Part shown: one piece after another, positions 9,859-52,070 of the stretch | Layout of the letters: every line of letters starts with the position of its first letter | Numbering within the stretch: the stretch's first letter is position 1 | DNA from: a virus | Strand: one strand, 5' to 3' | Virus record (IMG/VR): IMGVR_UViG_3300045743_000846 | Coordinates: 1-57,983 of that record | DNA length: 57,983 bases | Position numbers and translations under genes: made by a program | The notes under the pieces: generated by a model | What the model saw: only the letters and a program-made list of their open reading frames with translations | Told to the model about the DNA's origin: nothing | Databases searched by the model: none

Positions 9859-9977
9859 GCCCGCTGTCATCCGTGCGTGAACCACGCCTGCACTATTGTT
9901 TGCCCCGCTGTTGGCACTGATTTTTGCCCCGCTGTTTCCCCCCTGTTTTTGATGTCTGCACCAACCCACCCGAATCC

Positions 9978-12326
9978 ATGAATCCAACCCAAGCCGAACA
10001 AGAATACATCGCCGCCGCCACGCAAGGCATGATGGACAACAACCCGCGCGCCTACATCGCCCTTGATGCGCTCGGTAGCCTGTTGCTGGCCGAATTCCAT
10101 CAGGCGGTGCAGGAACGGCGCGACACCGAGCAGCGCTGGCTCAAGGATTTGCGCCAATACCGGGGCGTGTATGAGCCGGAAACCGAAGCCAAAATCGGCC
10201 CAAACCGTTCCAAAGCCTTTGTCCGGGCCACCCGGGTAAAAGTCAAGACAGCGGATGCACGCGTCACCGATTTACTGTTTCCGGCCAATTCCGAGCGTAA
10301 CTGGACAGCCGAACCGACGCCCGTACCCGCGATTGACCGCAGCACGCGCCGCCAGTTGATTGCCGCCTTGCGCGAAACCTTGCAGCGCCAGCCCAGCCAG
10401 TCAGAAATCGATGGCGCGATTGCCAAATGGGCCAAGGATGCGGCGCAGCGCATGACCCGCGTGATTGACGACCAACTGACCGAAGCGCGCTACAAAGACA
10501 CCGCCCGTAAAGTCTTGCATTCGGGCCACCTGTACGGCACCGGCATCTTGAAAGCGCCGCTGGTAGAGCGCAAAACCCGCACCAAATACCGGATGCAAAA
10601 AGGCGTTTGGCGCAGCAAAACCGAAGCGTATGTGGTGCCGTTCGTTGATTACGTGCCCTTGTGGCGCTTTTACCCGGACATGAGCGCCACCGAACTGGCC
10701 GAATGCCGCTATGTGTTTGAGCGGCACCTGATGACCCGTGCCCAATTGGCCAAACTGGCGAATAACCCCTCATTCGACGCCGATAAAATCCGCGCTACCA
10801 TCCTGAGCAACCCGCACGGCAGCCAAAGCCCGACCGAATACGACAGCGAAATCCGGCAAATCGGCGAGCGCAGTACCGGCAAAAACGATGGCCGCTACGA
10901 AGTACTGGAACGCTGGGGCTGGCTCGATGGCGAACTGTTGGCCGGGGCCGGGGTGGAGGTGCCAATTGAACGGATGCACGAAACCTTTTTTGCCAATTGC
11001 TGGCTGTTGCCCACTGGTGAAGTGTTAAAAATCGTACTGCAACCGATTAATGGCGTGACCTGGCCGTATCACCTGTACTACGCCGACAAAGACGAAACCA
11101 ATCTGTTTGGCGATGGCTTTGCTGCCATCATGCGCGACGATCAAACCATGATCAACGCCGGAACGCGTATGGTGCTGGACAATGCCGCCCTGACCGCCGG
11201 GCCACAGATCGAAGCCAATCTGCGTTTACTGTCTGCCACCGAGCAGGCCGACCAGATGTACCCCTTTAAAATTTGGGCCAGAAACGGAGAAGACCCCGGC
11301 ACCCCGGCGATTCGTGTATTGAATTTACCCAATGGCTTGGATACGCTGATGCCATTGATCAATATGTTCAAACTCAATGCCGATGATGTGACCGCCATTC
11401 CGCGCTACATGCAGGGAGAAAACGCCACCCAGGGCGCGGCGGGCACCGCTTCCGGCATGTCCATGTTGATGACCAATGCCAGCATCGTCATGAAGGATTT
11501 GATTACCAACTACGATGAAGGCGTCACCCGCACCTTCATTGAAGCGCTGTACCGCTGGAACATGCAATTTAACCCGGACAACCGCATCAAGGGCGATTTC
11601 GACATCAAGGCACGCGGCACTGCGTCACTGATGGCGAAAGAAGTGCGCGCCCAGCAGCTTGACCAATTCGCCGCCACCCTTGGCCCGGATGATGCACCGT
11701 ATATCAAACGCGAAGAACTGCTGCGCCAGCGCGCCGAAGCCCATGATTTGGCTTCCGTGATCAAAACCGAGCAAGAAGTCGCCATGGAGCAAAGTAGCGG
11801 TGCAGCCCAGCAGCAAGCGCAAGCCCAACAGCAGGCGCAACAGATGCAGCAGCAAGCGCAGCAACTGCAAATGGCGCAGGCACAACTTAGCTTAACCAAG
11901 ATGCAAGCCGAAGTCGATAAACTGAATGCCGAAGTTGACCGCATCCGCGCTGTGGCGCTTAAAACCAAGGTTGAAGCGGCCTATGCCGGGATGCAGGCCG
12001 GTGGCGTGGCGACTGAGCGGCCCACCATTGCCCCGGCAGGGGATGCGATTTTACTGGCGGCAGGCTGGCAGGCGGCGCTACCGGCGCAGGGGGCGGCAGG
12101 TGATGGCGCAGTAGGCAATGGAGCAGCGGCAAATGACATGGCGGGGAATGGCACAGGCGCAGCGCCAGCCCTTGCCGATAACGGCTTGCCCACCCCGCCC
12201 GCCATGCCGGATGCTGGCACACCCGCTATCACGCCAGTGCTACCGACCAGCGCACAGGCCGGGGCCAATGTCGGCGAACGGCACGGCATCGAAACTGCGC
12301 GCATTGAAGCGACCAACCCGGCATAA
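9978..12326 (+). CDS. Portal protein
   Basis: A 782-residue portal of the podovirus type: the dodecameric ring through which DNA enters and leaves the head. Supporting features are its position after terL, its length, an early HSGHLYGTGILK segment, FKLNADDVTAIPRYMQG followed by GAAGTASGMSMLM, and a C-terminal helical barrel region rich in Gln/Ala (about 610-680) with the coiled coil TKMQAEVDKLNAEVDRIR. The frame is open to 9924, but the ATG at 9978 gives the usual polar N-terminus. The C-terminal ~130 residues are Ala/Gly/Pro-rich. Part of the Gln-rich coil is copied in the small gene at 12419. Confidence 0.88.
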   Translation: MNPTQAEQEYIAAATQGMMDNNPRAYIALDALGSLLLAEFHQAVQERRDTEQRWLKDLRQYRGVYEPETEAKIGPNRSKAFVRATRVKVKTADARVTDLLFPANSERNWTAEPTPVPAIDRSTRRQLIAALRETLQRQPSQSEIDGAIAKWAKDAAQRMTRVIDDQLTEARYKDTARKVLHSGHLYGTGILKAPLVERKTRTKYRMQKGVWRSKTEAYVVPFVDYVPLWRFYPDMSATELAECRYVFERHLMTRAQLAKLANNPSFDADKIRATILSNPHGSQSPTEYDSEIRQIGERSTGKNDGRYEVLERWGWLDGELLAGAGVEVPIERMHETFFANCWLLPTGEVLKIVLQPINGVTWPYHLYYADKDETNLFGDGFAAIMRDDQTMINAGTRMVLDNAALTAGPQIEANLRLLSATEQADQMYPFKIWARNGEDPGTPAIRVLNLPNGLDTLMPLINMFKLNADDVTAIPRYMQGENATQGAAGTASGMSMLMTNASIVMKDLITNYDEGVTRTFIEALYRWNMQFNPDNRIKGDFDIKARGTASLMAKEVRAQQLDQFAATLGPDDAPYIKREELLRQRAEAHDLASVIKTEQEVAMEQSSGAAQQQAQAQQQAQQMQQQAQQLQMAQAQLSLTKMQAEVDKLNAEVDRIRAVALKTKVEAAYAGMQAGGVATERPTIAPAGDAILLAAGWQAALPAQGAAGDGAVGNGAAANDMAGNGTGAAPALADNGLPTPPAMPDAGTPAITPVLPTSAQAGANVGERHGIETARIEATNPA

Positions 12327-12418
12327 AGCGCGACATGCGCCGCCAAACAACGCCGCGCTTATCTACCGCTTATCTGCCGCTCATCCACCAAGTTATCACC
12401 CAACTGACAAGGATAATC

Positions 12419-12628
12419 ATGACCACAGCCTGTTATGGCGACATTTCGCCGCGCACCATGGCTTTTGTAGAAAAACCGGGGATTCAGAAACACACCATCC
12501 AACACATGGTGTTACAACGGCTTGAAGTGCGGGATACGCAACTTAAAATGATTCAAATGCAAGCTGAAATCGATAGGCTGAAGGCAGAAGTCGAACGCCG
12601 CCGCATCGAACCAACCACGGCAGCATAA
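12419..12628 (+). CDS. Capsid N-arm/portal coiled-coil chimera (69 aa)
   Basis: Residues 1-40 resemble the N-terminus of the major capsid protein (shared YGDISPRT, EK, I, MVL, R at matching spacing), and residues ~42-62 (KMIQMQAEIDRLKAEVERRR) resemble the portal's C-terminal coil. The similarity is visible in the DNA, including the leader CTGACAAGGA (12404-12413 and 14041-14050). The gene has the same Shine-Dalgarno context as the capsid gene, no internal stops, and sits between portal and scaffold. A head-assembly linker or size-control factor is possible; a neutral recombination scar that is still translated is the alternative. Confidence 0.7.
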   Translation: MTTACYGDISPRTMAFVEKPGIQKHTIQHMVLQRLEVRDTQLKMIQMQAEIDRLKAEVERRRIEPTTAA

Positions 12629-12636
12629 GACGGCCC

Positions 12637-12885
12637 ATGCTCACCACACCCGAACAACGCCGCGTCAACTTGCAGGCGACCAGCACCGATTTTGTGGCCT
12701 TCCGCAACAGTGCGCAAACTCGTGAACTGGTGGCCCTGTTGGATGCCATGATCGATCAATACCACGCCGATTTGGCCAGCGTCAAGCCGGAACGGTTGCT
12801 GTATGTGCAGGGCGCACTGGCCCAAGTGATGGCGCTACGTGCGCTGGCCTGTAGCGACAGTTTGCACTTGTCGCCGCTGATTTGA
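12637..12885 (+). CDS. Small head-module protein, unknown (82 aa)
   Basis: Not recognised. It is a predicted all-helical protein (RRVNLQATSTDFVAFRNS, then TRELVALLDAMIDQYHADL, then YVQGALAQVMALRAL). It begins 8 nt after the preceding stop and is followed by a terminator. Small helical proteins commonly sit between portal and scaffold in podovirus-like prophages. Confidence 0.6.
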   Translation: MLTTPEQRRVNLQATSTDFVAFRNSAQTRELVALLDAMIDQYHADLASVKPERLLYVQGALAQVMALRALACSDSLHLSPLI

Positions 12886-12929: not shown

Positions 12930-12953
12930 ACCCGCCCATGGCGGGTTTTTTTA
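12930..12953 (+). terminator. Terminator upstream of the scaffold gene
   Basis: ACCCGCC (12930-12936), loop CAT, GGCGGGT (12940-12946), then a T tract to 12953. The sequence from GCGGG through the T tract to GAGGAACCCATGC is nearly repeated at 21006-21045 ahead of the holin gene. Confidence 0.75.
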
Positions 12954-12975
12954 TTGTTTGACCCATGAGGAACCC

Positions 12976-13902
12976 ATGCGAAATGAAGAATCCGACCTGC
13001 CCGACCATGACGCCGAATTTGCTGCCGAATTCAACCGGGACGAGCCAAGCGGCACGCCGCCGTCAGCCGGGGCAACGAGCGCGCCGCCAGCGGCTGATAC
13101 CGGCAAAAAATCGAAGACCGCCAAAAAGCCGCGCCAGAAGGTAGGCGATAGCCATATGGCCGAGGCTGGACAAATGGCCCATGAACCGATGCAGGCGGGC
13201 AATGCCGCAAAAATGGCGATGCAGCACGCCGATGAAGCCAAGCGCCTGATGCAAATGGAAGCAAGCTTGCAGGCACGCGCGCGCGAGCTGGATAGCCGGG
13301 AAGCAGCGATGAAGCGGCACGACGGCAAAGCCGGGATGGACAAATCCGGGGCGGGCGGCATGCCAGATGACCATTCCACCGACCCGGCAAGCGACCAAGC
13401 CGACGACCCGATGGCCATCCTTTCCGCTGAATTTGGGGCCGATTTCGGCGATCTGCTGACTCGCGCCATTATCCAAATCTGCCAGCAACAAATCGGCCAC
13501 GGCATGAACAGCCTTGACGCCAAGGTTGAGAGTTTGATTGCCCACCTGAGCCAGGAGCGCCAGCAAAACCACTTGCAAACCATTGCCGCCAGCCACAAGG
13601 ATTTTATGGAAATCGTTGATTCCCCGGCCTTTATGGAGTGGAAAAGCGAACAGGACGCCAGCGGCCAAGCCGATATCGCGCGCGTGATGGAACAAGGCAG
13701 CGCGCAAGAAATCATCGCCATGCTGACCCGGTTTAAGCAGGATCAAGCCGATGACGACGATGATGATGGAAATGCCACCGCTCACGCCAGCGCGCACGAC
13801 CCGGCCATGGCGGCTGCCGAAGGCGTGCGCTCCTCTGGTATCCGTCTGCCCAAAGCCCCCAGTGCGGCAGATGATTTTGCGGCTGCCTGGAACGAAGCCT
13901 GA
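12976..13902 (+). CDS. Scaffolding protein candidate
   Basis: A 308-residue, highly charged, mostly helical protein located directly before the major capsid gene, the usual scaffold position. It has an acidic N-terminus, a Lys-rich patch (GKKSKTAKKPRQK), helices rich in Met/Ala/Glu (about 55-115), a middle segment (MAILSAEFGADFGDLL, then LSQERQQNHLQTIAASHKDFMEIVDSPAFMEW) and an Asp-run near residue 262. No protease motif was seen. The ATG at 12976 is chosen over TTG 12958 because GAGGAA precedes it at proper spacing. The family is not named from sequence; the role is inferred from position and composition. Confidence 0.7.
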   Translation: MRNEESDLPDHDAEFAAEFNRDEPSGTPPSAGATSAPPAADTGKKSKTAKKPRQKVGDSHMAEAGQMAHEPMQAGNAAKMAMQHADEAKRLMQMEASLQARARELDSREAAMKRHDGKAGMDKSGAGGMPDDHSTDPASDQADDPMAILSAEFGADFGDLLTRAIIQICQQQIGHGMNSLDAKVESLIAHLSQERQQNHLQTIAASHKDFMEIVDSPAFMEWKSEQDASGQADIARVMEQGSAQEIIAMLTRFKQDQADDDDDDGNATAHASAHDPAMAAAEGVRSSGIRLPKAPSAADDFAAAWNEA

Positions 13903-14056
13903 ACCAACATCGACCCGGATTGGGCAGTAAGCCGGGCCACGCCGAGGCACCAAGCAACGCCCCAAGTAACGCTCCACCGCAAGCAGCAGCCAGCGCCGTA
14001 CCCGGCTGTTTTCCCGCTTGTTTTTTCACTTATCCCCCACCTGACAAGGACACTCT

Positions 14057-15058
14057 ATGGCCACAACCAGCTATGGCGATATTTCGCCGCGTACCGCCGC
14101 CTACGCAGAAAAGGAATTACTCAAACGCGCCATCCCGTTCATGGTCTTGGAACGCTTTGGCCAAAGCAAGCAATTGCCGAGCAACAAAACCAAAACCGTG
14201 GTATTTCGCCGTTATAACGCACTCGACACCACCCCGACCGCCTTAGTGGAAGGCGTTACCCCCGGTTCGCAAAGCATGACTTCCACCGATGTCACTTGCG
14301 TGCTGACCCAATACGGTTCCCGCATCACGATTACCGACGTGATCATGGATACCCATGAAGATGAGGTATTGAACGAAGCGATTGAAATGTTGGGTGAACA
14401 AGCGCCGCAAGTGATCGAACGCATGCGCTTTGGCGTATTGCGTGCAGGCACCAATGTGGTGTACGGCAACGGGGCCAGCCGCTCTGCCGTGAATACCCCG
14501 ATTACGCTGGCAGCACAGCGGCGCGTGGTCAAAGCCTTAAAACGGCAAAACGCCGAGCAAATCACCAAGGTGATTAAATCTACCCCGGCTTGGGGCACCG
14601 AAGCGGTGGCCAAAAGCTATATTGGCCTGATCCACCCGGACATGGAACCCGATGTGCGCAATATGATTGGGGCCGATGGCAAATCGGTGTTTGTCCCGGT
14701 GGAAAAATACGGTTCGATGGTGCCCTATGAAAACGAAATCGGCAAGGTGGATGATGTGCGCTATCTGTCATCCACCATTTTTACGCCGTTTTTGGATGCA
14801 GGCGGGGCCAAGGGCTTGATGACTTCCACGGGCGGCACCAATGCCGATGTGTATTCGGCACTGTTCATCGGGGCCAATGCCTATGGCGTGGTGGCATTAA
14901 AGGGCATGTTTGCCATGACGCCGTTGGTGGTCAACCCGAAACCGTCCGACTCCGACCCACTGGCCCAGCGTGGCCATGTCGGCTGGAAAGCGTTTCAGGG
15001 CGCGGTGATTCTCAACGATGCATGGATGTGCCGGGGCGAATTTGCCGTGACGGCCTAA
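14057..15058 (+). CDS. Major capsid protein
   Basis: A 333-residue product consistent with an N4-gp56-like or related HK97-fold capsid: an N-terminal arm (YGDISPRTAAYAEKELLKRA), then TKTVVFRRYNALD, VLTQYGSRITITDVIMDTHED, a central VVKALKRQNAEQITKVI helix, and LIHPDMEPDVRNM. The start has a good site (GACAAGGACACTCT then ATG) and the gene sits between scaffold and a small structural gene. The first ~40 codons and the leader are partly copied at 12404-12540. Family is suggested by pattern only; the role is strongly supported by position and length. Confidence 0.85.
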   Translation: MATTSYGDISPRTAAYAEKELLKRAIPFMVLERFGQSKQLPSNKTKTVVFRRYNALDTTPTALVEGVTPGSQSMTSTDVTCVLTQYGSRITITDVIMDTHEDEVLNEAIEMLGEQAPQVIERMRFGVLRAGTNVVYGNGASRSAVNTPITLAAQRRVVKALKRQNAEQITKVIKSTPAWGTEAVAKSYIGLIHPDMEPDVRNMIGADGKSVFVPVEKYGSMVPYENEIGKVDDVRYLSSTIFTPFLDAGGAKGLMTSTGGTNADVYSALFIGANAYGVVALKGMFAMTPLVVNPKPSDSDPLAQRGHVGWKAFQGAVILNDAWMCRGEFAVTA

Positions 15059-20994: not shown

Positions 20995-21018
20995 GCCCGC
21001 CCCCAGCGGGCTTTTTTT
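20995..21018 (+). terminator. Terminator upstream of the holin candidate
   Basis: GCCCGC (20995-21000), loop CCCCA, GCGGGC (21006-21011), then seven T. Its 3' part and the following ATTGTTTTGCC and GAGGAACCCATGC nearly repeat the unit ahead of the scaffold gene (12940-12979). Confidence 0.72.
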
Positions 21019-21041
21019 ATTGTTTTGCCGATGAGGAACCC

Positions 21042-21272
21042 ATGCCCAACTCTGACACCCTGCTAACCCACAGCGCCAGCGCGCCACCCATGGCGGTAGC
21101 CTTTATCAACCACATCGGCATCAGCCTGCCCGACTTGGTGCAACTGGCCACGCTGATCTACACCAGTCTGTTAATCCTGCACAAGCTATGGCGCATGGCG
21201 CGCGAATGGCGCACGAATCGGGCAAGCACAGCAAACCCAAGCAAACTAAATCCCCCCAAGGAAACCCAATGA
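21042..21272 (+). CDS. Holin candidate
   Basis: A 76-residue protein with a single hydrophobic helix (LPDLVQLATLIYTSLLILHKLW, about residues 26-47) followed by a basic tail (RMAREWRTNRASTANPSKLN). Size, one membrane span and charged C-terminus fit small phage holins, which open the inner membrane at lysis. GAGGAACCC precedes the ATG. The stop overlaps the next start (ATGA). No endolysin or spanin gene adjoins it, which weakens the call. Confidence 0.55.
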   Translation: MPNSDTLLTHSASAPPMAVAFINHIGISLPDLVQLATLIYTSLLILHKLWRMAREWRTNRASTANPSKLNPPKETQ

Positions 21273-28444: not shown

Positions 28445-28831
28445 AAATTACCATCCATATATTTACCAATTATTTAAAACTTTAAGTATGAATTTCACAG
28501 CAAAATAATTTGCAAACTATCACCAGCACCTTCTAAATAATTCCATTGAATTAGTGAAAAGCGAGCATATTGGCAAATCATAACAAAACCGATTAAAAGG
28601 AACGCACAGGAGTAAAAAAATAAAAAATCGCCATATAAATTTTAGTTTTTGCAACCCTCAAAAATATCCTGCTCGAATGTTTGCACCAATCGTAACCGAA
28701 AACGGCGGCGAGATTGCAATAGTCATCATTTTGCCACTGATTAGTAATAAAAACACTTAGTCCCCATACTGTCGTTGTTTTCTTGCTATTTGCGCGGCAT
28801 CTAAGCAACCGAAGCACGCCCGCAGACAACT
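28445..28831. other. AT-rich gap upstream of the AbiTii gene
   Basis: About 387 nt of AT-rich DNA ending exactly where the ~645-bp direct repeat starts (28832). It should hold the leftward promoter for the AbiTii gene, but I could not assign one with good spacing. A 78-codon minus-strand frame (28593-28829) has no ribosome site or recognisable pattern and is not called. The junction at 28832 marks the right edge of island 1. Confidence 0.4.
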
Positions 28832-29477
28832 AAATTCCAAGATTTTTCCAAGTCACTCTTACCATGCCATCCGTCCCCAACCCAAGGAGAACCGGATGCC
28901 CAATTTCAACGCATCGCCCCACTTTCACCACCTGCTGCATTCTCTGCCAGTCGCCCCGGTAGTGGCCGCCATAGCCAGCCAGCCGCACCTGTTCGGCCAG
29001 CACACTGACCGCACCCGCGCCCCCAACTCGCCCCACCGCGAAGCGACCGACATCTGGCTACGCTACAACGACCACCGCAATCTTGGCCCTACCTTTAACG
29101 ATGAACACGATTCGGTGTGGTATCCCGCCTGGTATGCGCTGTCGGAACTGGCCCCGCTGGTATTTGGCCTGATGCACGAAGTGCAGGGCGAACGGCTGGG
29201 CGGCATTCTGATTACCAAACTGCCACCCGGTGGCCAAATCGCCCGCCACAGCGCCCACAGTTGGCACGCCCGCTACTACGACAAGTTTTACATCGCCCTG
29301 CAAAACGCCCCCGGCAGCGTGTTTTCTTTCCCGGATGGCGACATCCACGCCCAAGCCGGGGATTGCTATTGGTTCGACAACAACGTGCCGCACAGCGTCC
29401 ACAACCAGTCCGGGCAAGACCGGCTTTCCCTCATCGGCTGCATTAAAACCGACCTGTTCAAGGAATCCCGCCATGCC
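28832..29477 (+). repeat. Direct repeat copy 1 (oxygenase gene and leader)
   Basis: About 645 bp nearly identical to 31419-32065. It begins with AAATTCCAAGATTTTTCCAA in both copies, includes the same ribosome-binding leader (AAGGAGAACCGG then ATG) and the oxygenase frame, and ends just after CATGC, at the start codon of the cupin gene in copy 2. Here the downstream cupin is missing and unrelated AT-richer DNA follows. Confidence 0.9.
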
Positions 29478-31182: not shown

Positions 31183-31482
31183 AAATTCCCTTTCGATGAT
31201 CAAGAATCGGTGTTTGTATACTACCCCGAATGATTTCCATCGGTCAACATTTATTTCTATACATATTTGTTGTCACCTTGAATTGTTGCACGCGTGTCCG
31301 ACCTGATAGTGCAACCAATCTGCCATTTACGTTTTTGAGCTGGCACGGCAAGGCCAACACTCCAATCGCATCCCCTAACTATTTTTTGTAAAAAACAACA
31401 AAACCCAGCGTTTCAACAAAATTCCAAGATTTTTCCAAACCAAACTTACCATGCCATCCGTCCCCAACCCAAGGAGAACCGG
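31183..31482. other. Gap between the CHAP-like gene and oxygenase copy 2
   Basis: The first ~235 nt are AT-rich and should carry the leftward promoter of the exported protein; no clear -35/-10 pair was identified. From 31419 the sequence becomes the leader of the repeat, identical in outline to that of copy 1, including the 20-nt start AAATTCCAAGATTTTTCCAA. Confidence 0.4.
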
Positions 31483-32065
31483 ATGCCCAATTTCACCTCA
31501 TCGCCCCACTTTCACCACCTGCTGCACTCCCTGCCAGTGGCCCCGGTAGTGGCCGCCCTTGGCGCGCAACCGCACCTGTTCGGCCAACACCCTGACCGCG
31601 CCCGCGCCCCCAACTCGCCCCACCGCGAAGCGACGGACATCTGGCTACGCTACAACGACTACCGCAATCTTGGCCCCACCTTTAACGATGAACACGATTC
31701 GGTGTGGTATCCCGCCTGGTATGCGCTGCCCGAACTGGCCCCGCTGGTGTTTGGCCTGATGCACGAAGTGCAAGGCGAACGGCTGGGCGGCATTCTGATC
31801 ACCAAACTGCCACCCGGTGGCCAAATCGCCCGCCACACCGACCACAGTTGGCACGCCCGCTACTACGACAAGTTTTACATCGCCCTGCAAAACGCCCCCG
31901 GCAGCGTGTTTTCTTTCCCCGATGGCGACATCCACGCCCAAGCCGGGGATTGCTATTGGTTCGACAACAGCGTGCCGCACAGCGTCCACAACCAGTCCGG
32001 GCAAGACCGGCTTGCCCTCATCGTCTGCATTAAAACCGACCTGTTCAAGGACACACCCCATGCTT
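31419..32065 (+). repeat. Direct repeat copy 2 (oxygenase gene and leader)
   Basis: Partner of 28832-29477, in the same orientation and ~2.6 kb apart. Recombination between the copies would remove the CHAP-like gene and restore a single oxygenase-cupin unit. Confidence 0.9.
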
Positions 32066-34731: not shown

Positions 34732-37700
34732 ATGAATTTAGCGCAAGCACGTTACAAATTGCCGGAATTGGCCGGGTTGGATGACCAATCGGCCCTGGAA
34801 GTGATTCAACAAAACTATTACCCGATGCTGGACAAGCACGACTTGGCCAAACAATTGGGCGTTACCCTGCCCGAGCCACCCGTTAAACAAGCCGGAGTAC
34901 TGCGCACGGCGGGCGATGTCGGCATCAAACTGGCGCAAGGTGTGGTGGATTTGGGCAGTTCTGCTGTTGGCCTCGGTAGTTTGGCTACCGGTGGTTTAGT
35001 CGGCAAGGGCATGCGCGCCGCCGGTTATGACCCGAAGGCCGCCAATGAGATATTGGGCAGTTACCTGTCCGACAGCCAAAAAGCCGCCGATGACAAGGTG
35101 CAGCATGCCGATGGCTTTGTCGATACCCTTGCTGCCTCGCTGCAAAATCCGCGTTCGATACTGGGCAGCATCGCCGAATCGGCCCCCGGCATGCTGGCGG
35201 GCATGGGCGTAAGCAATGCGGTGGCGCGTGGCATTGCCGCCAAAGCCGCCTTGGCCACGGGTGAAGGGGCCGCCGCCAGTGCCAGCGCGCGCGCAGCCGG
35301 GCAAACTGCCAGCCAAGCCGGACGTGCCGCACTGGCAACCGATCTTGGTAGCCAAGCCGCCAGCCGTGCAGTGGATGCTGCCGGGAACAAGCTGTTGGCC
35401 TTGGGTGCGGCCACCGAAGGCGCACAGGCTGCCGGGCAGATTGCCGATGATGCGCAAGCCGCTGGCCGTGCCTATGCCGATTACGCTTTGCCTGCCATCG
35501 CTGCCGGTACATTGACCGGTTCCATTGGCTATGGTGCCGGGCGCTTGTTGGGCGATGCCGCCACCCACATTGCCACCGGGGCCAGATCGACCGGGGTGCG
35601 CGGTAGCCTTGCGGCACGGGTAGGCAAGGAATTATTCAGTGAAGGCGTGTTGGAAGAATTGCCGCAATCGGCGCAAGAACAAGCCTTTACCAATTTGGCG
35701 CAGGGTGAACCGGATGTAATGCACGGCGTGGCCAATGCCGCCGCCACCGGCTTGGTAACCGGTGGCGTAATGGGGGCAGGCATGGGTGCCTTGCAAGGCA
35801 GACATCACCCGGCCAACCCAAGCACCAGCAACCCGGCGCAGCGCAGCAATCCGCCCGTGGTATTGCCGGACAGTGGCCCACTCTCACAGGCGGCCAATGC
35901 CGGGCAACAGGCAACGGCAACCATTCAACCCGCCGCCAGTAGCGCCCCCGCGAAAAATACCGCCGATGCGGGCGACCTGCCGTTAAACAGCGCACCGCCG
36001 TTGTCGCTGGACGAAATCGACGCCCGCATGGCTCAACTGGTAGCGCTTGGCCATGGCCGTTTGGCCAGCCGGGTACGCGATGAACAGGGTAATCTGCAAA
36101 CCGTCCCGGCCATCAAAGGCCGCCGCCTGACGCAGGAAGAAACGGCAGAATACCAAGCCCTGAACCAAGCGCGCCAGCAACGCACCGCCATTCCGCCCGA
36201 GCAACAAGCCGACTACCAAGCCCTGTTGGCACAAGAGCAAGCCGAACAGCAACAAAAAGCCGCCGCCACGCTGGCGCGGCAAGCACAACAGGCGCAACAA
36301 GCACAGCAGGCCCAGCAAGAGGCAGAACTGGCGCAACTGCTGGCCGAGGAACAAGCCGAGCGGCAGGCGCAGGCACAGCAAGCGCAACAAGCACGGGCCG
36401 CACAGGAACGGCAGCAACTTGATATTACCAATGCCATTGTGGCGCATGAACGGCAAACCCGCAGCGAGGCCGAGCGCGCCGCCTTGCGCCAGCAAGTGAT
36501 TAATGATCATTCAATTGCCCCGCAGCAAAAAGTCGCTGCCCTGCAAAAGCTGTATCAATTATCCGGCTACGCCGACCCCAGCCTGTCGGCGCAGGATCGA
36601 CATGAAATCGAGTTGGCCACCGTACCGGTTCGGGCGCTGCCGAATGAATTGATTGACCCGGTACCGGAGCGCAGGCCCGCCACCCATAACAAAACCGTGC
36701 AGCCGAATTTGCAGGCAGTCGATAACGCGATTGCGCAAGGCATGCGCTTGCGCACTGCCAAGGGCAATCTGTTGCACAAAAAGGGTTCGAGTAAAATCTT
36801 TAGGCTGAATGGCGCGCAAAAGGCGTATTACCTGGAACAGATGGCGCGCTTGGCGCAAGGGCAAGCGCAGGAGCCAGCACAGGCAGAACAGGCAGAACAG
36901 GCAGAACAGGTGGCCAATGAACCCGCCCGCACGCCAGCACTGGAAGCCAATGCCGAGCCAGCCGCCGCCCGGGTGGAAAGTCCCGCGCCATTGCTGCCTG
37001 CCGACACCGCCAATGCGGAACCGGCCAGCGTGGCAAACGCACCCGCTACGCCTGCCTTGCCGGATGCGGTGCCAGCGCCCCAAGCTGCACCGGCACCGGC
37101 CAAGGAACTGACTACCCGGCAAGCACTGAACCGCAAAACCGTCAAGGACATGAGCGATGATGAGTTGCGGCAAGCGAAACAGGTGTTAGCCGATAGCCCG
37201 CGTGCGCCAAAAATCGACAAGGAAATGGCCCGCCGGGGCTTGCACGCTGAACCGGCCCCGGCAAGCAGCACGCCTGCCGAAGCGGCACAGCCGCCGATAC
37301 CACAAGGATTTGTTCGGGCGGTGGATGGGCAGGTACAGGCCAATCGGCCCGCTACCGAACCGGTTACCGCGCCAGCGAGCGGATCAAGTGATACCGACCG
37401 CACCAGTCAACCGGCCAAGTCGGCATCCTACTTTGCTGATGCGGCAGTTGAACCCAACCCGTTAACCCAACCCGTGAATGAAAGGGGGGACAAGGGAATA
37501 GTCACTCACCCAATACCCGGTATCGCGCCGGAACCCACGAACACTGCCGACCTGATACAAGGGGCGGCGAACCCGCAGGCTTCAGCACCACAAGCTGGCA
37601 CCCATTCACAAGAGACGATTGGGCGAACGATAGTGTCGCCAGATGACTATCCGCTGGCAGAGTCCGAACGAAGTTATTCCGGCATCAGCCTCCATCCGAA

Positions 37701-40700
37701 TCAGCGTGCGCAGGGGGATCGGGATGAATTTGTCAAAGTGGTGCAGAACACCTATGACGCTGCGAAAAAGTTGGTGATGACAGAAGCGCAACAAGCGGCG
37801 CTTGATGCGGCGATTTCCCGTTTCAAAAATGAGTATCTGCTCGAAACGCGCAAGGTAATTCGAGTGCGTTCGGGTACGTACAGTGCGTTTGTGGCCGGGC
37901 GCTCAAAAATAAACACAAAACAAGCCGATGCGCGCAACCGGGCGTATGACAAGGCACTGGTGGATTTCTTCGGGTGGCAGAAAAATGCAGCGCCACGGGT
38001 GGCGCAGGCGGTGCTTGATGCCCGCACGCCGGAACAATTGGCAGAAGTGGCGCGGGAAAAAGCGGCAAAGGCAGCGGCGCGGCAGGAAAAAAATGATGCG
38101 TTTTTGCGCCGGTTGTTGAATTTTAAGCCGGGTGCAGATACGGTCACACTCGGTGAGGCGAAGCTGACGCGTATAACCTATGACCGGACTGGTCTGCCCA
38201 ATGCGCTGATACTGGAAGAACCGGGTTTGATCAAGGGTGTAACCGATAAGTTCATGATAGTGCCTACCTTGTATGCCAGCAAGGATGCATTGCGGGTAGC
38301 GGTGGAACGGGTGCGCAACGCTGTGCAAGCCGAACCAAGCCTTGAAACGAGCCAAGTCCAGGATTACAACGCTGTGGCGGGGAATGGGGCGGCACATGTC
38401 GAAGCCGGGCGCGTAGAACCGGCAACACCGGCAGTAATTGGGGAATCCATTGCCAAGTCTGCCGCCAATACGCCAATGAACCTGAAACAGGCCAAGGCCG
38501 ATCTGTTGGCGAAAATTGACGAGGAACTTGCCAAGGCACCTGAAAGCGCACGCACTGCCGAACATCGGCTTGCTACCAAATTGGCTGAAGCTGATCTGGC
38601 CGCTGCCCAAGAAAAATACCGGTCTAACCGAACCAACGCCAACGAAAAAGCGGTGTCCGAACTGATGAAAACCGTGGAAGTGCTGCGTACCATGGGCAAC
38701 CGGGTAACCTTCGATGTACCGGGCGATGGTAAATTCACGGTGCTATTTGATAAGCCGCACTTGCAGAAATTCCGCGATAAGGTTGCGGCAAACCCCGGCT
38801 TCAATGATAAAACCCGCCCAGTCAGCAAACCAAAGGCGCTCCCCTTTACCCCGGAAACCACCCTTTTGGATTTGTTGAAAGATGGCGAATTGCAAGCCGC
38901 TTACCAGTTTGCCAAGCAGATTGGAAAACCATTCCGCTTTACCACTGACCGCACCAGCAATGTGCCAAATCTGTATATTAATGCCGCCCCCGTGGATTTG
39001 GTGCCCGGTGTTGCGACCTGGGTTGGCAAGCAAACCAAGCGTGAGCCGAATGGCGGCATCACGCCCACGGCAAGTTGGTATGTGATTGAAAATAGCACAG
39101 GTTCATCGCTGGGTACGGATGGCACGGCACAAGGTGCTATCGCGGCTGCGAAAAAAAGGGTAGCCAACAAAGGCGTTGATCAATTTTTTCAGGCATTGGC
39201 AGAGGCTCCAAAAGTCGAGGAAAGCACGCTGGAACAGCAATGGCTACAGTACCATCATGCGGAAAGCATAGACGATTCGCACACACCGCCGCCTGAAGCC
39301 CCGACACAACAGGAGCCAGCGCCACAGCATGACGCCATTGTCACGCCAGTCATTGCTACACCAACCGATACCCAACAACCCAATCCAGCCATCGAAACGG
39401 CGGCGATTCCAACCAGTGAACCGGAACCGGCAAAGGAAACCGCCCAGTCTGAAGTTGAAGAGCCATTGCGGATTCCAGAAGGATACAAGCCGGTTGGCGA
39501 ATACTACCGATATGACATTCCCACAGAAGGCTATGCCCCGTTCAAAGAAGGGGATCGAGTCAGGATGCTCGAAAGTGGCTGGCGCGGCACCGTCGATTCC
39601 CTGTTTGGGGAAGGGCCAATTTTTTCCAGCGGCATCATTAAATACGACAATGGCACCACGGTAAGGCAGTTTTGGCACCAAGTTGAAGCGGCACCAGAAC
39701 AGGCTACCGTGCAGCCAAGCGCACCAGACAGCGCACAAACCAACGTACCAACCAGCACGCAAGCAGCGGCCAGCCCCGTGAACAGCCTGGCCGCGATTGA
39801 ACAGGTATTCGAGCGGGCCAGCCATGGCCAATTGCCACTGCAAGAGTTTCATGCGGCTTATGCCAGCTTTAACGAACACGAAGCGGCAATCACGGCAGAA
39901 CTCTCTGCCATGAAAAAGGATGAATTGCTGCGCTATGGTGGCCCGGCATTTACTTATCAGAACAGGGATGACAAAAAGGCAGAAGTCGTCAAGGATTTAT
40001 ATAGCACCTTGCGTGAACAATTTGCCTTTGCGCGGGAAAGAACGCTTTCCTACACGCTTTCCGGCAAGAATGAAAGTTGGGAAACCGCGCGCAAGAATGC
40101 AATCGACCAAGCCGTGGCAGACACGACACAGGCCGATCTTGAGCGCTATGCCGCCGACCGGCAAGCGCTGCGCGACAAGCAGGCTGCCAAGCTGGAAGGC
40201 ATGCAAGACCCGAAAACGCTGGACGATTTTATTGGGCTGATGCGGGAAAAGGTGCGTGATGGGATGTCGTTCAAGGCGGCGCGCTTGTCATTGCCCTTGG
40301 CCCAGCGCGCCATGTTCGACAGGCTGACCGCCGAAAAAAGCCAGGCAGAACGGGGCGCGAACAAGGTGCCCGTGCTGCGGGCACCAAATGCCCCGGTTGG
40401 CAGCACCGATATCATCCAGACCAAACACACCAAACACGGCCATGATTTATGGCAATTTAATCTGGAGCAACGGGTGTCACCAGACCAATTCAAGGCATTG
40501 GTGGTGCAAGCCCGGCGCTTGGGTGGGGATTATTCCAGCTATCGCGGCCATGGTGCCATTCCGGGCTGGCAATTTCGCAGCGAGGAATCGGCCAAAGCGT
40601 TCAAGGCGCTGGTGGCAGGCGATACCGGGGCGGCAGAAACCGTTATTCAGGCGCGGCGCGATGCCTTCGCCGATGACCGGACGCAAAGTGCAACCGAGCG

Positions 40701-43700
40701 CCTGAGCGAAATGGCCGATGCGCTGGAACAGTCGGCCACGGCATCGCTCAACCAAGATCGAAAAGCCAATACGGCGCGTCGGGCCGAGATGGCCAGCCGG
40801 GCCGATTCTGCCGCGCGCCATGCTTTGGCGTTGGCCCAGACCATGAAAAACATGGCTGCGGCACTGACCGATGGCAGTGCGCCGTTTTTGCGCCATGTTC
40901 GGCAAAAAACACAGGTGGCGTTTCTGAACAATACGGTTGAGCGGGCATTGCTGGCGCAGTGGCAGGCCAGCGGTAAAGCCTATTTTGAAATTGAGAACCT
41001 GAAAGGCAGCCCGGCCACGGTTGAGGCAGCGGATTATGCCGAATGGCCGACTTATTCTGCATACCGCTCGGACTTGGCCCAGCTTGGCAGGCGCTTGCTT
41101 GAAGTGGATGGCACGCGCATGCTCGGTAAGCAGATTCTGAAGGAAGCCGATGATGTTACTGACGCCTATATGGCATTTGCCAAGAAAAATCTTCATCTGG
41201 TGCGGGGGTTTTCTTCGCAAAGCGGTGGGCCTTTGGTCACAAGCGCCAAGGCTGAAGCCGAAGCGATTATCTACCGTAGCGGGTTCCGGGGCCGGGCAAT
41301 TCCGTTTAGCCCGAAGGCGCGGGAATGGACGGTCATTTATAGCCCGGGCGAAGCGATTGAGCGCGGAATCTGGCCAGGTGACGGCGACAAGCGCATTTCA
41401 CTGGCTGACCAGTTTGGGCGGGAACTGGTGGCCAAGATTGGCCGGGCCAATAATCGGGGAGCCAAGGTAACGGTGCCGTGGCAGTTTGAAAATGCGTATG
41501 AGCGGCAAGCCATGCTGGCGCGCATGGGTATCGAAACCCCGGCAGAATTTCGCGCCACCTTACGCGAGTTCATCAATTTGCAGGGCCAACAACAGGTGGC
41601 CGACCCAATCCGGGAGTTGGAACGCAAAATGGTGGGCCGCACCAACGATGGACTGGACTTTTTTCCGACCGGTGAAGCGGCTGTCGATGAAATGATTGAT
41701 GTGGCCGGGATCGAGCCGGGTATGCGGGTGCTGGAACCGGAGGCGGGCTGGGGCCATATCGCGGAACAGATTCGCCAAGCGGGTGTTGAACCGGATGTGG
41801 TGGAATTGTCGCATGACCGGCGGCAATTGCTGGAAGCCAAGGGTTTTACGGTGGTTGGCCACGATTTTATGGACATTTCGCCCGAGACGCGTGGGCGCTA
41901 TGACCGGATTTTGATGAACCCGCCGTTTTCTGACCGGCGCGATGCCCAGCATGTCATGCATGCTTTTACCTTGCTGGCACCACGCGGGCGACTGGTGGCG
42001 ATCATGGGCGAAGGGGTGTTTTTCGGGCAGGATGCCAAGGCCAAGGCGTTTCGGGAATGGCTGGAATCAGTGGGGGGCACCAGTGAAAAACTGCCGCCGA
42101 ATTCGTTCATGGATGCCAACTTGCCGGTAAATACCAGCGTGAACGCGCGCATGGTGGTGATTGATGCGCCGGAAACCCTGGCTGATGGTGTTGCCGCGCA
42201 GCCTGCGGTACAGCCTGCCGCAACCGAAGCGACCACGGCACCGGCACCAAAGCTATCACAGCGTACTACCGCAGCCGATGCATTGGGCCATACCCCGGCA
42301 TCATTGGCCGCTGCCATGAATGGGGCACTGGCCCGGTATGGTGATCACTTTTTTACCGATTTGCTGGCCACAGGCCGGGTGCAGGTTATCGACCAAGCCG
42401 CCGCGAATGCGATTTTGCATTTTGCCGGGGTTGAATCTGGCGGCAGCGCAACACCTGTTGCGTTTTATAATCCGGCTGACCAAATCACCTATTTTATTGC
42501 CGATGCCATCCCAAGCAATACCAGTGATGCCGCACTGTACGGGCTGGTGTTGCATGAAATTGCCAATCATGCCTTGCAAATGGGGCGCACCGAACCGGAG
42601 TTTGGTCAATTGTTGCGCCAGTTTGCCTTGATGCAAGGGGGCAATGCGCAAGTGGCAGCCGCATTTGCCCGTGCGCGCGAGCTGGGTACGGCACCGGCCC
42701 GACTGGCCGAAGAAGCGCTGGGTTATTATTTGGAGGCGAACCCCACACTGGGGTTTGCCCAAAAGGTATTGGCATGGTGGCGTACCCTATTGCGCAAGCT
42801 GGGGCAAGCCTTGCCAGCGCTGAACCGGTTGCGCTGGTTCCGGGCAGTGCAAGCGCTGTCGGCCCCGGATTTGGTACTGGCGGCGCAGCAAGCATTGCGG
42901 CAAGCACCGTATGTCTTGCCCCTTAATCAGGCTTCGCTGCGTGAGCCTGAGCGGGCACCTGCCATGAGCCAAAGCACACCCAACACCGCACCCAACACCA
43001 CATCAAACAGCCAACTGGTGGCCATCTGGCAACGTATCGGGCAAGCGCAAGACGGGTATCAATATCCGGTGTCATCAGCCAGGGATTTGGCCAGCGTGAT
43101 GCAAAAGGTATTGCCTGATAGCAAAGTGGTACGACTGGACAGGGATGCGCCCAAGGCGCGCAGCCTTGCCAGCTTGCAATGGAAAATAACGATGCCGGAT
43201 GGAAAGCACGCCTATGTGTATGAATTTGGCCGCGATCTGCAAATCGATGCATCGCAACTGGCATCGGGCAGCTCGCGCGGTTCTGCGCTGTATGCCGCGC
43301 TGGCCAATTATGCGTTTAATACCGGCAAGGTGCTGGAGGGGGACAGTGCGGGCCTGTCGCCGGTTGGCCAGATGCGCCGTTTGGAGAACATGATTGCCAG
43401 TGCCATCAAATTCGGCAGCACCGACCACATGCGGCCCCATCCGGCACAAAAGCAGCCTAATTCGGGATTGACCCAGCAAATTGGCTTGCATGGCATTCGC
43501 TGGGCAACCGGTGATTATCAACACAACCTTGCGCAAATGCTCAGGGCTTCGTATGATTATGTATCTTTCCTTGTTCCTGAGATTGGCCATGTCAACTTTA
43601 CCGAGTACGGAGATTTCACCGGAGCAGATGGTGATTTATTCACAGATGATAATTTCCGGCACTTGGCAGAGCGTGCCACCGGCATACTTCACCAGCGCTT

Positions 43701-46700
43701 GGCGGCATCAGGAATTGACACGCCTGCGAAAATTGGAAGCGCAACGCTTAAAAGAGCAGCTATCACCGGAACCATTTTACGCGCAGAACGCAGCCCGGCT
43801 GGGCGAATCCTATTGGGACAGCTTGGCACAGAGTTACACACCCATATAGGGCAGGCGCAACACATTCTGTACAGCCATGGCTTGGGCCGGGCGTTAAACC
43901 AAGCGGCCAACAACATCGCACAGGTACGGCTGCCTGCCGGGTATGTGGTGGGTGATTTGTTCAACCAGTCCGGCCAAATCAGTTGGTGGCACAAAACCAT
44001 AGGAACCATGGACAATTTGGCGCGCCGCCACCGCGAATTTGCCCCGGTGTATGAGTCGGCACAAAGCTTTTTGGGCGATGTGTCGCGCTATGCGGTGGTG
44101 GCTGCCGATGCCGCGCCGACCCTGCTGCCGAAACTGGAGCAGGTCAGGGATATTATCGGGGCCAAGCGCAAGAAGGCAGTCAGCGCGGAAGATACGCGCA
44201 TGATTGCCGCACCGATTTTTGAGGGCACTTTGCTTTGGGCGCGGGATGAGGATGGCGTGCCGGTGCAACTCAAGCAGTTGGAAGACCGGGCCAAGGCCAT
44301 GAGCGTGGATGAGAAAGCCGCGATTTTATTGCGGCAGGGGGTGATCGATGCGCAGCAGCAGGCGGCATGGCAAAAGATGGGGCCAAAGATGGGCCAAAAT
44401 TCGCATGACCGCATCATTGCTGAAAAGTTTGAGCAAAGCCAGTTGCAGGCGGGCATTGTTTGGGAGGATGAGGAATTGCGCACGCTGTTTCACTTGTCGG
44501 AGCCGCAAATTGCGCTGTATCGGGAATTCCGGGCCGGGGTGGATCAAAGTTTGAGCCATTTGACGATTAGCGAAATGCTGAAATTGGGCGGCAAGGAAAC
44601 GGAATTATTGCGTGATGCAGCGATGGCAGCCGAGAATTTGCCGGGTGCGGCCAAGCTGTTGACTGATTACCTGATGGAATTGGCGCAAGCCGAACCGCAA
44701 AACCAAAAGATTTATCTCGATACCGCACAGCAGATTGCCAAGCTGGCCGGGCGTGGCATCGATTTGATGAAGAAGGGCTATGCCCCCTTGTCGCGCTTTG
44801 GTCGCCATGCGGTGTATGTGCAGGAAGACGGGGAACAGGCGTATTTTGGGTTGTTTGAATCGCGCTTTGAGGCGGGCAAGATGGCGCGGAAAATGCGCGC
44901 CAATTACCCGAATGCACAGGTGACGCACGGCACGGTGTCCGATGAAGCCTATAAACTGTTTGCCGGGGTGGCCCCGGAGACGGTGGAATTGTTTGGTGAC
45001 ATGCTGGGGCTGGATCGTTTGGGCGACGATAAGAGCCGGGAACTGTATCAAACCTATTTAAAACTGACCAAGAACAATCGCAGTGCCTTGAAACGGCTGA
45101 TCGAGCGCAAGGGGATTGCCGGGTTCTCGGAAGATGCGGGCCGGGTGTTGGCCGGGTTTATCTATTCCAATGCCCGGCTGACGGCAGGTAACCTGCACCT
45201 GGGCGAGATTGACCGGGCGATTACCGAGATACCGAAGCAGCAAGGGCAATTGATTGATGCCGCAGTGCAGTTGCGCGAGCATATCCGCAACCCGCAAGGC
45301 GGGAATCTGTTGGGTGGGCTGATGTTTGCACAGTTTTTGGGCGGTTCAGTCGCTTCGGCCATGGTCAATTTAACCCAGCCCTTGACCATGACTTTGCCGT
45401 ATTTGAGCCAGTTTGGCGGTGCGCTGGCAGCAGCGCGGCAATTAACCACGGCAGCGCGGGATGCACGGCGGGCCAAAACCGGGGATGCCCGACTGGATGC
45501 GGCTTTGCAATGGGCCACCGAAGAAGGGATTGTGGCCCCGCAAGAGGTGCATTACTTGCGGGCGCAAGCCGCTGGCAAGGGCGCATTGCAAGCCGGGGAT
45601 GGGTCGAAATTGGGCAATGCCCGTGCTACGCTGAACAATGCCGTGGCTAAACTTTCGCTTGGTTGGGGCAAAATGTTTGCACTGGCTGAATTGGCTAACC
45701 GGCGCATTACCTTTATTGCGGCTTATCGCACGGCGCAGGCGCAAGGGTTGCAAAATCCGGCCTTGTTTGCACGCGATGCGGTGACGCAAACCCAGGGCGT
45801 GTACAACAGCGGCAACAAACCGGCTTGGGCGCGCGGTGCGATTGGTGGCTTGGCACTGACCTTTAAACAGTATTCGATTAATTACATTGAATTGCTGTCG
45901 CGCATGGCCATGGCAGGGCAAGCCGGATCAGCCGAGCGTGCCGCTGGCAGGCGCGCCGCTTTGTTAATGGTGGCCGTGCTGTTTTTTCTGTCCGGCGTGG
46001 ATGGTTTGCCGTTTGAAAAGAATCTGGAAGATGTGATCGATGGCATCTTGCAGCGGCTCGGGTATAACTTTGCCAGCAAGCGGCAAAAGCAGGCTTTTTT
46101 AACCGAGGTGTTGGGCGAAGGCGCGGCAGACTTTGTATTAAAAGGGGTATCGAGCCTGCCCGGCATGCCGATTGATGTGGCGGGCCGTTTGGGTATGGGC
46201 AATTTGCTGCCCGGCACCGGGTTATTGACGCAAAAGGCATCGTATACCAGTGACATCGGGGAATTGGCCGGGCCTGCCGGGGATATTGCCAAACGGGTGT
46301 TTACCGGCAGCGGCAAGCTGCTGGGCGGGGATGTGGCCGGGGCGGCGCTGGATGTGGCACCACAAGCGCTACGCAACCTGCAAAAGGGCGTGGATATGCT
46401 GGCCACTGGCCAGTATAACGATGCACGCGGCTATCAGGTCAACCCGGTGACGGTGCCCGAAGCCATCATGAAACTGGCCGGGTTTCAGCCGAACAGCACC
46501 GCCAATATTCAGGATGCCAAGGGGCAAGCATTAAACATGATTGCGCAAACCCGGCTGCGTGCCAACCAGATTCAGGAACATATGGCGCAGGGTATGGCGC
46601 AAGATGACCCGGATAGGGTACGCGAAGCACGGGCTTGGCGCGATGACTGGAATGCCAAGAATCCAGAAACGCCGATACAACTGAATATGCCGGGGGTGTT

Positions 46701-46806
46701 GCACCGGGTGCGCGCCATGCGGCAGGATGCTTTGTTGCGCACCCAGCAGACGGCACCGAAGGCGATTCGGCAGGCGGTGCAGCGCGAATTGTCTCAGGTG
46801 CGGTAA
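34732..46806 (+). CDS. Giant polyvalent virion protein (4024 aa) with MTase and zincin domains
   Basis: One uninterrupted frame, preceded by AAGGATTATTC. In order: hydrophobic Gly/Ala helices (about 50-360) suited to membrane passage; a Gln/Ala coiled coil (about 495-565); a basic domain near 1015-1120; a possible SH3-like segment near 1590-1640 (FKEGDRVRML); an N6-adenine methyltransferase with motif I VLEPEAGWG near 2330 and N2396-PPF; a zincin-like site His2608-Glu-x-x-x-His2613 (LVLHEIANH); and a C-terminal Gly/Ala-rich region (about 3525-4000) with VNLTQPLTMTLPYL and FKQYSINYIELL, resembling the LPD38 domain of large polyvalent proteins. Such proteins are injected with DNA and protect it. 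It probably replaces gp16. Domain edges are approximate. Confidence 0.88.
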   Translation: MNLAQARYKLPELAGLDDQSALEVIQQNYYPMLDKHDLAKQLGVTLPEPPVKQAGVLRTAGDVGIKLAQGVVDLGSSAVGLGSLATGGLVGKGMRAAGYDPKAANEILGSYLSDSQKAADDKVQHADGFVDTLAASLQNPRSILGSIAESAPGMLAGMGVSNAVARGIAAKAALATGEGAAASASARAAGQTASQAGRAALATDLGSQAASRAVDAAGNKLLALGAATEGAQAAGQIADDAQAAGRAYADYALPAIAAGTLTGSIGYGAGRLLGDAATHIATGARSTGVRGSLAARVGKELFSEGVLEELPQSAQEQAFTNLAQGEPDVMHGVANAAATGLVTGGVMGAGMGALQGRHHPANPSTSNPAQRSNPPVVLPDSGPLSQAANAGQQATATIQPAASSAPAKNTADAGDLPLNSAPPLSLDEIDARMAQLVALGHGRLASRVRDEQGNLQTVPAIKGRRLTQEETAEYQALNQARQQRTAIPPEQQADYQALLAQEQAEQQQKAAATLARQAQQAQQAQQAQQEAELAQLLAEEQAERQAQAQQAQQARAAQERQQLDITNAIVAHERQTRSEAERAALRQQVINDHSIAPQQKVAALQKLYQLSGYADPSLSAQDRHEIELATVPVRALPNELIDPVPERRPATHNKTVQPNLQAVDNAIAQGMRLRTAKGNLLHKKGSSKIFRLNGAQKAYYLEQMARLAQGQAQEPAQAEQAEQAEQVANEPARTPALEANAEPAAARVESPAPLLPADTANAEPASVANAPATPALPDAVPAPQAAPAPAKELTTRQALNRKTVKDMSDDELRQAKQVLADSPRAPKIDKEMARRGLHAEPAPASSTPAEAAQPPIPQGFVRAVDGQVQANRPATEPVTAPASGSSDTDRTSQPAKSASYFADAAVEPNPLTQPVNERGDKGIVTHPIPGIAPEPTNTADLIQGAANPQASAPQAGTHSQETIGRTIVSPDDYPLAESERSYSGISLHPNQRAQGDRDEFVKVVQNTYDAAKKLVMTEAQQAALDAAISRFKNEYLLETRKVIRVRSGTYSAFVAGRSKINTKQADARNRAYDKALVDFFGWQKNAAPRVAQAVLDARTPEQLAEVAREKAAKAAARQEKNDAFLRRLLNFKPGADTVTLGEAKLTRITYDRTGLPNALILEEPGLIKGVTDKFMIVPTLYASKDALRVAVERVRNAVQAEPSLETSQVQDYNAVAGNGAAHVEAGRVEPATPAVIGESIAKSAANTPMNLKQAKADLLAKIDEELAKAPESARTAEHRLATKLAEADLAAAQEKYRSNRTNANEKAVSELMKTVEVLRTMGNRVTFDVPGDGKFTVLFDKPHLQKFRDKVAANPGFNDKTRPVSKPKALPFTPETTLLDLLKDGELQAAYQFAKQIGKPFRFTTDRTSNVPNLYINAAPVDLVPGVATWVGKQTKREPNGGITPTASWYVIENSTGSSLGTDGTAQGAIAAAKKRVANKGVDQFFQALAEAPKVEESTLEQQWLQYHHAESIDDSHTPPPEAPTQQEPAPQHDAIVTPVIATPTDTQQPNPAIETAAIPTSEPEPAKETAQSEVEEPLRIPEGYKPVGEYYRYDIPTEGYAPFKEGDRVRMLESGWRGTVDSLFGEGPIFSSGIIKYDNGTTVRQFWHQVEAAPEQATVQPSAPDSAQTNVPTSTQAAASPVNSLAAIEQVFERASHGQLPLQEFHAAYASFNEHEAAITAELSAMKKDELLRYGGPAFTYQNRDDKKAEVVKDLYSTLREQFAFARERTLSYTLSGKNESWETARKNAIDQAVADTTQADLERYAADRQALRDKQAAKLEGMQDPKTLDDFIGLMREKVRDGMSFKAARLSLPLAQRAMFDRLTAEKSQAERGANKVPVLRAPNAPVGSTDIIQTKHTKHGHDLWQFNLEQRVSPDQFKALVVQARRLGGDYSSYRGHGAIPGWQFRSEESAKAFKALVAGDTGAAETVIQARRDAFADDRTQSATERLSEMADALEQSATASLNQDRKANTARRAEMASRADSAARHALALAQTMKNMAAALTDGSAPFLRHVRQKTQVAFLNNTVERALLAQWQASGKAYFEIENLKGSPATVEAADYAEWPTYSAYRSDLAQLGRRLLEVDGTRMLGKQILKEADDVTDAYMAFAKKNLHLVRGFSSQSGGPLVTSAKAEAEAIIYRSGFRGRAIPFSPKAREWTVIYSPGEAIERGIWPGDGDKRISLADQFGRELVAKIGRANNRGAKVTVPWQFENAYERQAMLARMGIETPAEFRATLREFINLQGQQQVADPIRELERKMVGRTNDGLDFFPTGEAAVDEMIDVAGIEPGMRVLEPEAGWGHIAEQIRQAGVEPDVVELSHDRRQLLEAKGFTVVGHDFMDISPETRGRYDRILMNPPFSDRRDAQHVMHAFTLLAPRGRLVAIMGEGVFFGQDAKAKAFREWLESVGGTSEKLPPNSFMDANLPVNTSVNARMVVIDAPETLADGVAAQPAVQPAATEATTAPAPKLSQRTTAADALGHTPASLAAAMNGALARYGDHFFTDLLATGRVQVIDQAAANAILHFAGVESGGSATPVAFYNPADQITYFIADAIPSNTSDAALYGLVLHEIANHALQMGRTEPEFGQLLRQFALMQGGNAQVAAAFARARELGTAPARLAEEALGYYLEANPTLGFAQKVLAWWRTLLRKLGQALPALNRLRWFRAVQALSAPDLVLAAQQALRQAPYVLPLNQASLREPERAPAMSQSTPNTAPNTTSNSQLVAIWQRIGQAQDGYQYPVSSARDLASVMQKVLPDSKVVRLDRDAPKARSLASLQWKITMPDGKHAYVYEFGRDLQIDASQLASGSSRGSALYAALANYAFNTGKVLEGDSAGLSPVGQMRRLENMIASAIKFGSTDHMRPHPAQKQPNSGLTQQIGLHGIRWATGDYQHNLAQMLRASYDYVSFLVPEIGHVNFTEYGDFTGADGDLFTDDNFRHLAERATGILHQRLAASGIDTPAKIGSATLKRAAITGTILRAERSPAGRILLGQLGTELHTHIGQAQHILYSHGLGRALNQAANNIAQVRLPAGYVVGDLFNQSGQISWWHKTIGTMDNLARRHREFAPVYESAQSFLGDVSRYAVVAADAAPTLLPKLEQVRDIIGAKRKKAVSAEDTRMIAAPIFEGTLLWARDEDGVPVQLKQLEDRAKAMSVDEKAAILLRQGVIDAQQQAAWQKMGPKMGQNSHDRIIAEKFEQSQLQAGIVWEDEELRTLFHLSEPQIALYREFRAGVDQSLSHLTISEMLKLGGKETELLRDAAMAAENLPGAAKLLTDYLMELAQAEPQNQKIYLDTAQQIAKLAGRGIDLMKKGYAPLSRFGRHAVYVQEDGEQAYFGLFESRFEAGKMARKMRANYPNAQVTHGTVSDEAYKLFAGVAPETVELFGDMLGLDRLGDDKSRELYQTYLKLTKNNRSALKRLIERKGIAGFSEDAGRVLAGFIYSNARLTAGNLHLGEIDRAITEIPKQQGQLIDAAVQLREHIRNPQGGNLLGGLMFAQFLGGSVASAMVNLTQPLTMTLPYLSQFGGALAAARQLTTAARDARRAKTGDARLDAALQWATEEGIVAPQEVHYLRAQAAGKGALQAGDGSKLGNARATLNNAVAKLSLGWGKMFALAELANRRITFIAAYRTAQAQGLQNPALFARDAVTQTQGVYNSGNKPAWARGAIGGLALTFKQYSINYIELLSRMAMAGQAGSAERAAGRRAALLMVAVLFFLSGVDGLPFEKNLEDVIDGILQRLGYNFASKRQKQAFLTEVLGEGAADFVLKGVSSLPGMPIDVAGRLGMGNLLPGTGLLTQKASYTSDIGELAGPAGDIAKRVFTGSGKLLGGDVAGAALDVAPQALRNLQKGVDMLATGQYNDARGYQVNPVTVPEAIMKLAGFQPNSTANIQDAKGQALNMIAQTRLRANQIQEHMAQGMAQDDPDRVREARAWRDDWNAKNPETPIQLNMPGVLHRVRAMRQDALLRTQQTAPKAIRQAVQRELSQVR

Positions 46807-52038: not shown

Positions 52039-52070
52039 GAGTTGGCCGGGCGGTGATGTCAATCGGGTTC

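Follow-up and report, generated by a model that had tools for sequence, protein, structure and literature searches.

Origin of a small chimeric gene between the portal and scaffold-like genes of a virus genome

In the head-gene cluster of a virus, a short open reading frame (mini-ORF) follows the portal gene and resembles, in its two halves, two of its neighbours. The question is how such a gene arose and whether it has a function today. The window, meaning the whole stretch of DNA analysed, has 57,983 bases and corresponds to a single virus record. Its head genes follow the order small terminase, large terminase, SU10-type portal, 69-aa mini-ORF, g82, scaffold-like protein and N4-gp56 major capsid protein. 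The last five are located as follows.

9969-12326, + strand: portal protein (PHROG 332 and 1216, Pfam SU10_portal), parent of the 3' part of the mini-ORF
12419-12628, + strand: chimeric mini-ORF of 69 aa, defined by its translation and by DNA similarity to the capsid 5' end and the portal coil
12637-12885, + strand: g82, a conserved 82-aa gene with homologues after the portal gene in about 34 loci
12976-13902, + strand: scaffold-like protein ending in DDFAAAWNEA (PHROG 13678, with no assigned function), the tail being conserved in relatives
14057-15058, + strand: major capsid protein of the N4-gp56 family (TIGR04387, PHROG 1357), parent of the 5' part of the mini-ORF

Membership of the capsid gene in its family was clearly confirmed with NCBIfam TIGR04387 (E 9e-94, 314 bits, cut-off 60). 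The AlphaFold model of the capsid protein (pLDDT 62.7) was too poor to argue from structure. The product of 12976-13902 is called scaffold-like from its position between portal and capsid and from its homologues in relatives. The mini-ORF product, MTTACYGDISPRTMAFVEKPGIQKHTIQHMVLQRLEVRDTQLKMIQMQAEIDRLKAEVERRRIEPTTAA, is encoded exactly by 12419-12628 on the + strand and matched no family above cut-off in Pfam, PHROGs or NCBIfam. In the AlphaFold model, the N-terminus was of low confidence and residues 20-63 formed a single long helix, with pLDDT 93-98 in residues 31-60.

The initial annotation regarded the mini-gene as a chimera of its two neighbours with DNA similarity at both ends, leader included. 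Both points were borne out by alignment. In a blastn search of 12330-12640 against the whole window, 12393-12519 matched 14030-14154 at the capsid 5' end (72.9% over 129 columns, E 5.7e-14), and 12557-12604 matched 11901-11948 in the portal coiled coil (79.2% over 48 nt, E 2.3e-6), the latter match extending ungapped backwards to CAACTTA. The capsid block scored 81 and the coil block 47, while the maxima in 500 dinucleotide shuffles were 31 and 32, respectively. A six-frame search of the record agreed for both halves (E 3.2e-6 and 2.7e-5). The leader of the mini-ORF, CTGACAAGGA, begins at 12404. Altogether four pieces were delimited, two of which, the portal 3'-end block and the g82-start scrap following the portal stop, had been overlooked in the initial annotation.

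12327-12357, + strand: apparent scrap of the g82 start, directly after the portal stop, with broken frame
12393-12526, + strand: capsid-derived part, comprising the leader with AAGGA ribosome-binding site and about 36 codons, copy of 14030-14161
12539-12604, + strand: part derived from the portal coiled coil, copy of 11883-11948
12602-12628, + strand: part derived from the portal 3' end including the stop, copy of 12300-12326

All block junctions of the mini-ORF are in frame. In the tail block, the mini-ORF (CGCATCGAACCAACCACGGCAGCATAA) and the portal gene (CGCATTGAAGCGACCAACCCGGCATAA) agree at 20 of 27 positions over their nine final codons, against a mean of 9.3 for pairs of gene ends of the window in fixed register at the stop; the observed level of 17/24 was reached by none of 50,000 random in-frame 24-mers. 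This support rests on the fixed register, since the tail block does not stand out as a free local alignment and, on that measure, is not closest to the window's own portal gene. The portal end and the g82 scrap (12273-12357) aligned jointly with 12576-12664, including a 15-nt match (CCRAACAACGCCGCG), with a score reached by 1 of 2000 shuffles. The scrap taken by itself was not significant (39 of 2000 shuffles) and gains significance only together with the portal end.

The parents of the two main blocks are found in the same genome. The capsid half scored 81 in alignment with its own genome and 46 with the best fetched locus, and the coil half 47 and 30, respectively. The capsid leaders of relatives differ and CTGACAAGGA is not present there, which indicates that the likeness between the leaders of the mini-ORF and the capsid gene is not general family conservation. 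Taken together, the unshared leader and the higher scores against the window's own genes argue for a duplication within this lineage.

The chimera was absent from all other loci examined (about 170), and none of the capsid-bearing loci among those examined contained a second copy of the capsid start. Degenerate pattern searches revealed no other example of YGDISPRT followed by Met, and none of the coil. Using the mini-protein as query in IMG/VR yielded 24 pattern matches with no relative among them, and g82 as query confirmed no relative. A pattern combining leader and arm retrieved 14 loci, none with the mini-gene; the capsid relatives encoded by six of these show no more than 52% identity across most of their length. 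Among named phages, nothing matched the mini-protein, and capsid relatives reached up to 41% only. The absence of the mini-gene applies to relatives with up to 83% capsid identity, as the searches may leave out records very near that of the window.

The isolated occurrence of the chimera in a single virus record, with no second record containing it, could raise the suspicion of an assembly artefact of the metagenomic contig. However, an assembler could not have produced copies that differ by 21-27% from their parents, so that this explanation is practically negligible. The chimera is real and specific to its lineage, and its origin can be read; it is the product of an ordinary evolutionary process that has left an unusually clear record in the DNA.

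Very probably, an old tandem duplication took place here, and the mini-gene is what survives of its junction. The duplicated segment would have spanned the portal coiled coil, g82 and the scaffold gene up to the capsid 5' end. The portal gene would then have been followed by a first copy of g82 and of the scaffold gene, by a fusion of the capsid start with the portal coil and portal end, and by the second copies of g82 and scaffold before the capsid gene. Most of the first g82 copy and the first scaffold copy would have been lost later, as would an internal part of the fused portal tail; such deletions would leave the capsid leader and arm, the portal coil and the portal end directly before g82. 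The observed succession of capsid 5' end, portal coil, portal 3' end and g82 is the one predicted for such a junction, and the capsid and coil blocks have their parents in the same genome, closer than in any relative. The genome also carries a second large direct duplication, 28827-29476 with 31414-32063 (650 bp, 94%), which was counted in favour of this origin. No intermediate with two copies of g82 or of the scaffold gene was found in about 170 loci; a historical intermediate need not survive.

A stepwise mosaic was considered as well, in which the capsid-start and portal-end fragments were each acquired in an event of their own, either from another phage or through illegitimate recombination. 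Leaders alone do recur in the genome, as 12931-12979 and 20996-21045 display the same terminator-like hairpin and ribosome-binding leader (86% over 50 nt), the former preceding the scaffold gene and the latter a later ATG; short transfers may therefore occur. Nevertheless, a single duplication followed by deletions accounts for the order of all blocks and for the g82 scrap, and the best matches of both main blocks lie in the window's own genes, which makes separate acquisition improbable. The mini-gene is comparable to chimeric genes known from tandem duplication and deletion junctions, in that two neighbouring genes are joined in an open frame confined to one lineage. It differs from them in that its two parents both serve head assembly in a single phage and that a conserved small gene follows the junction directly. 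Literature searches for comparable duplication chimeras returned nothing relevant.

Other features of the window were noted. Each of the repeated segments 28827-29476 and 31414-32063, separated by about 1.9 kb, contains a copy of an Asp/Asn beta-hydroxylase-like gene (PF05118). More diverged direct repeats are located at 53613-53724 and 54252-54363 (72%) and at 54878-54940 and 54950-55012 (76%). A single ORF of 4024 aa covers 34732-46806, and two adjacent ORFs at 48845-52062 on the - strand both match N-6 DNA methylase (PF02384).

With regard to function, the initial annotation had suggested a possible role of the product in bridging portal and capsid or in titrating the capsid arm, and it noted features shared with the capsid N-terminus. 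YGDISPRT, EK, MVL and R are indeed shared, but the mini-protein has lost the greater part of the invariant arm (AAYAEKELLKRA, PF). Residues A14, A17, L21, L22, R24, P27, E32, F34 and G35 are invariant or nearly so in 38 capsids of the family, and they are mostly replaced in the mini-protein. Divergence from the capsid gene is about 15% in the leader and codons 1-13 and 41% in codons 14-35 (Fisher p 0.0017). The pairwise dN/dS between mini-ORF and capsid gene was 0.31, a value too imprecise to decide (bootstrap 0-0.79). An RNA hairpin GGCGA-TCGCC in the YGDISP codons, common to mini-gene and capsid gene, seemed conserved (TCG in 30 of 42) and was rejected because other serine positions show equal bias.

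An assembly factor would be a coiled-coil oligomer showing the capsid-arm motif, binding scaffold or portal or titrating the capsid arm. The retained YGDISPRT and the confidently predicted helix over the portal-like coil would fit such a protein. In phage P22, the N-arm helix of the coat protein is the binding site of the scaffold C-terminus (PMC9965877), and this docking of a scaffold tail on a capsid N-arm is what an assembly factor might exploit by analogy. In this family, nearly all scaffold-like proteins end in a tail resembling DD[YF]AxAWNEA, and in several relatives small proteins beside the portal bear one or two extra copies of it (TDYADAWNRH, LADYAHAWRHDAQ), which was counted for the assembly factor. 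The proteins with scaffold tails in relatives, designated by locus, are given below.

L006, 997-1557
L010, 675-1340
L111, 8637-9056 and 9046-9618
L109, 8473-8799
L007, 2331-2567
L022, 2729-3226

None of these accessory proteins matched a Pfam or NCBIfam family, and their tail looks like a head-targeting tag reused on them. The capsid of P22 is a different one, and the mini-protein lacks a domain match and most of the family-conserved arm residues. Given the loss of most of these residues and the uninformative dN/dS, nothing beyond the resemblance supports bridging or titration. The initial annotation had also proposed to look for the same chimera in related prophages, and its absence from the loci surveyed counts against a conserved modulator of capsid assembly. 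A role as assembly factor is accordingly regarded as unlikely. Even less credit was given to a combined scenario, in which a newborn head-assembly coiled-coil peptide, displaying YGDISPRT, would tune how procapsids nucleate at the portal vertex, with translation of g82 being driven by its ORF as well.

A role of the mini-ORF as translated leader cistron for g82 appears to be the likeliest present function, at a probability slightly short of even. This ranking was based on the frames ending near g82, the contrast in Shine-Dalgarno strength and the 8-nt spacing. The portal stop abuts or overlaps g82 in many relatives. In about 30 of 34 loci, the end of an open frame, be it portal or inserted gene, is found within about 15 nt of where g82 starts, with starts picked by rule and a few TTG starts being doubtful. 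In the window, the mini-ORF stops 8 nt upstream of g82, which itself has a poor duplex with no clear Shine-Dalgarno (-2.0 kcal/mol), whereas the ribosome-binding site of the mini-ORF, copied from the capsid gene, reaches -5.0 kcal/mol. The mini-ORF thus has its own ribosome-binding site and stops near a next gene without a good one. The better preservation of the leader and first 13 codons was also counted for this role. Ribosomes would load at the capsid-type site, read 69 codons and stop just before g82, and the mini-ORF would replace the coupling that the portal gene gives to g82 in relatives, its peptide probably being of little consequence. Against this, it is usual for phage ORFs to stop shortly before the following gene. 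RNA folding around the g82 start was unremarkable (z -0.1). Translational coupling of adjacent genes is established (review PMC12548453). As in known leader cistrons, a short ORF with a good ribosome-binding site ends shortly before a gene with a poor one; the difference is that the putative leader is here derived from structural genes.

The mini-ORF could also be an inert relic of the duplication junction, devoid of function and subject to drift, its frame having stayed open by chance. A neutral frame of 69 codons would stay open with a probability of about 0.16-0.54 (substitutions only, no indels), and for this reason the open frame is no proof that selection keeps it. The lack of the mini-gene in any relative found and the loss of invariant capsid residues point in the same direction, and the dN/dS obtained fits one neutral and one constrained branch. 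Yet the ribosome-binding site and the first codons are unusually preserved, every junction is in frame and g82 itself lacks a good ribosome-binding site. The relic, a serious possibility of roughly one chance in three, was therefore ranked close behind the leader cistron.

The locus offers an unusually legible case of the birth of a phage orphan gene, as both parents, the sequence of events and, it appears, even a remnant of a deleted gene can still be recognised. If the mini-ORF is a leader cistron, a duplication scar would have been kept for the translational coupling it restored and not for a useful peptide. This would represent a way in which small 'genes of unknown function' arise, and other cases of it could be sought elsewhere.
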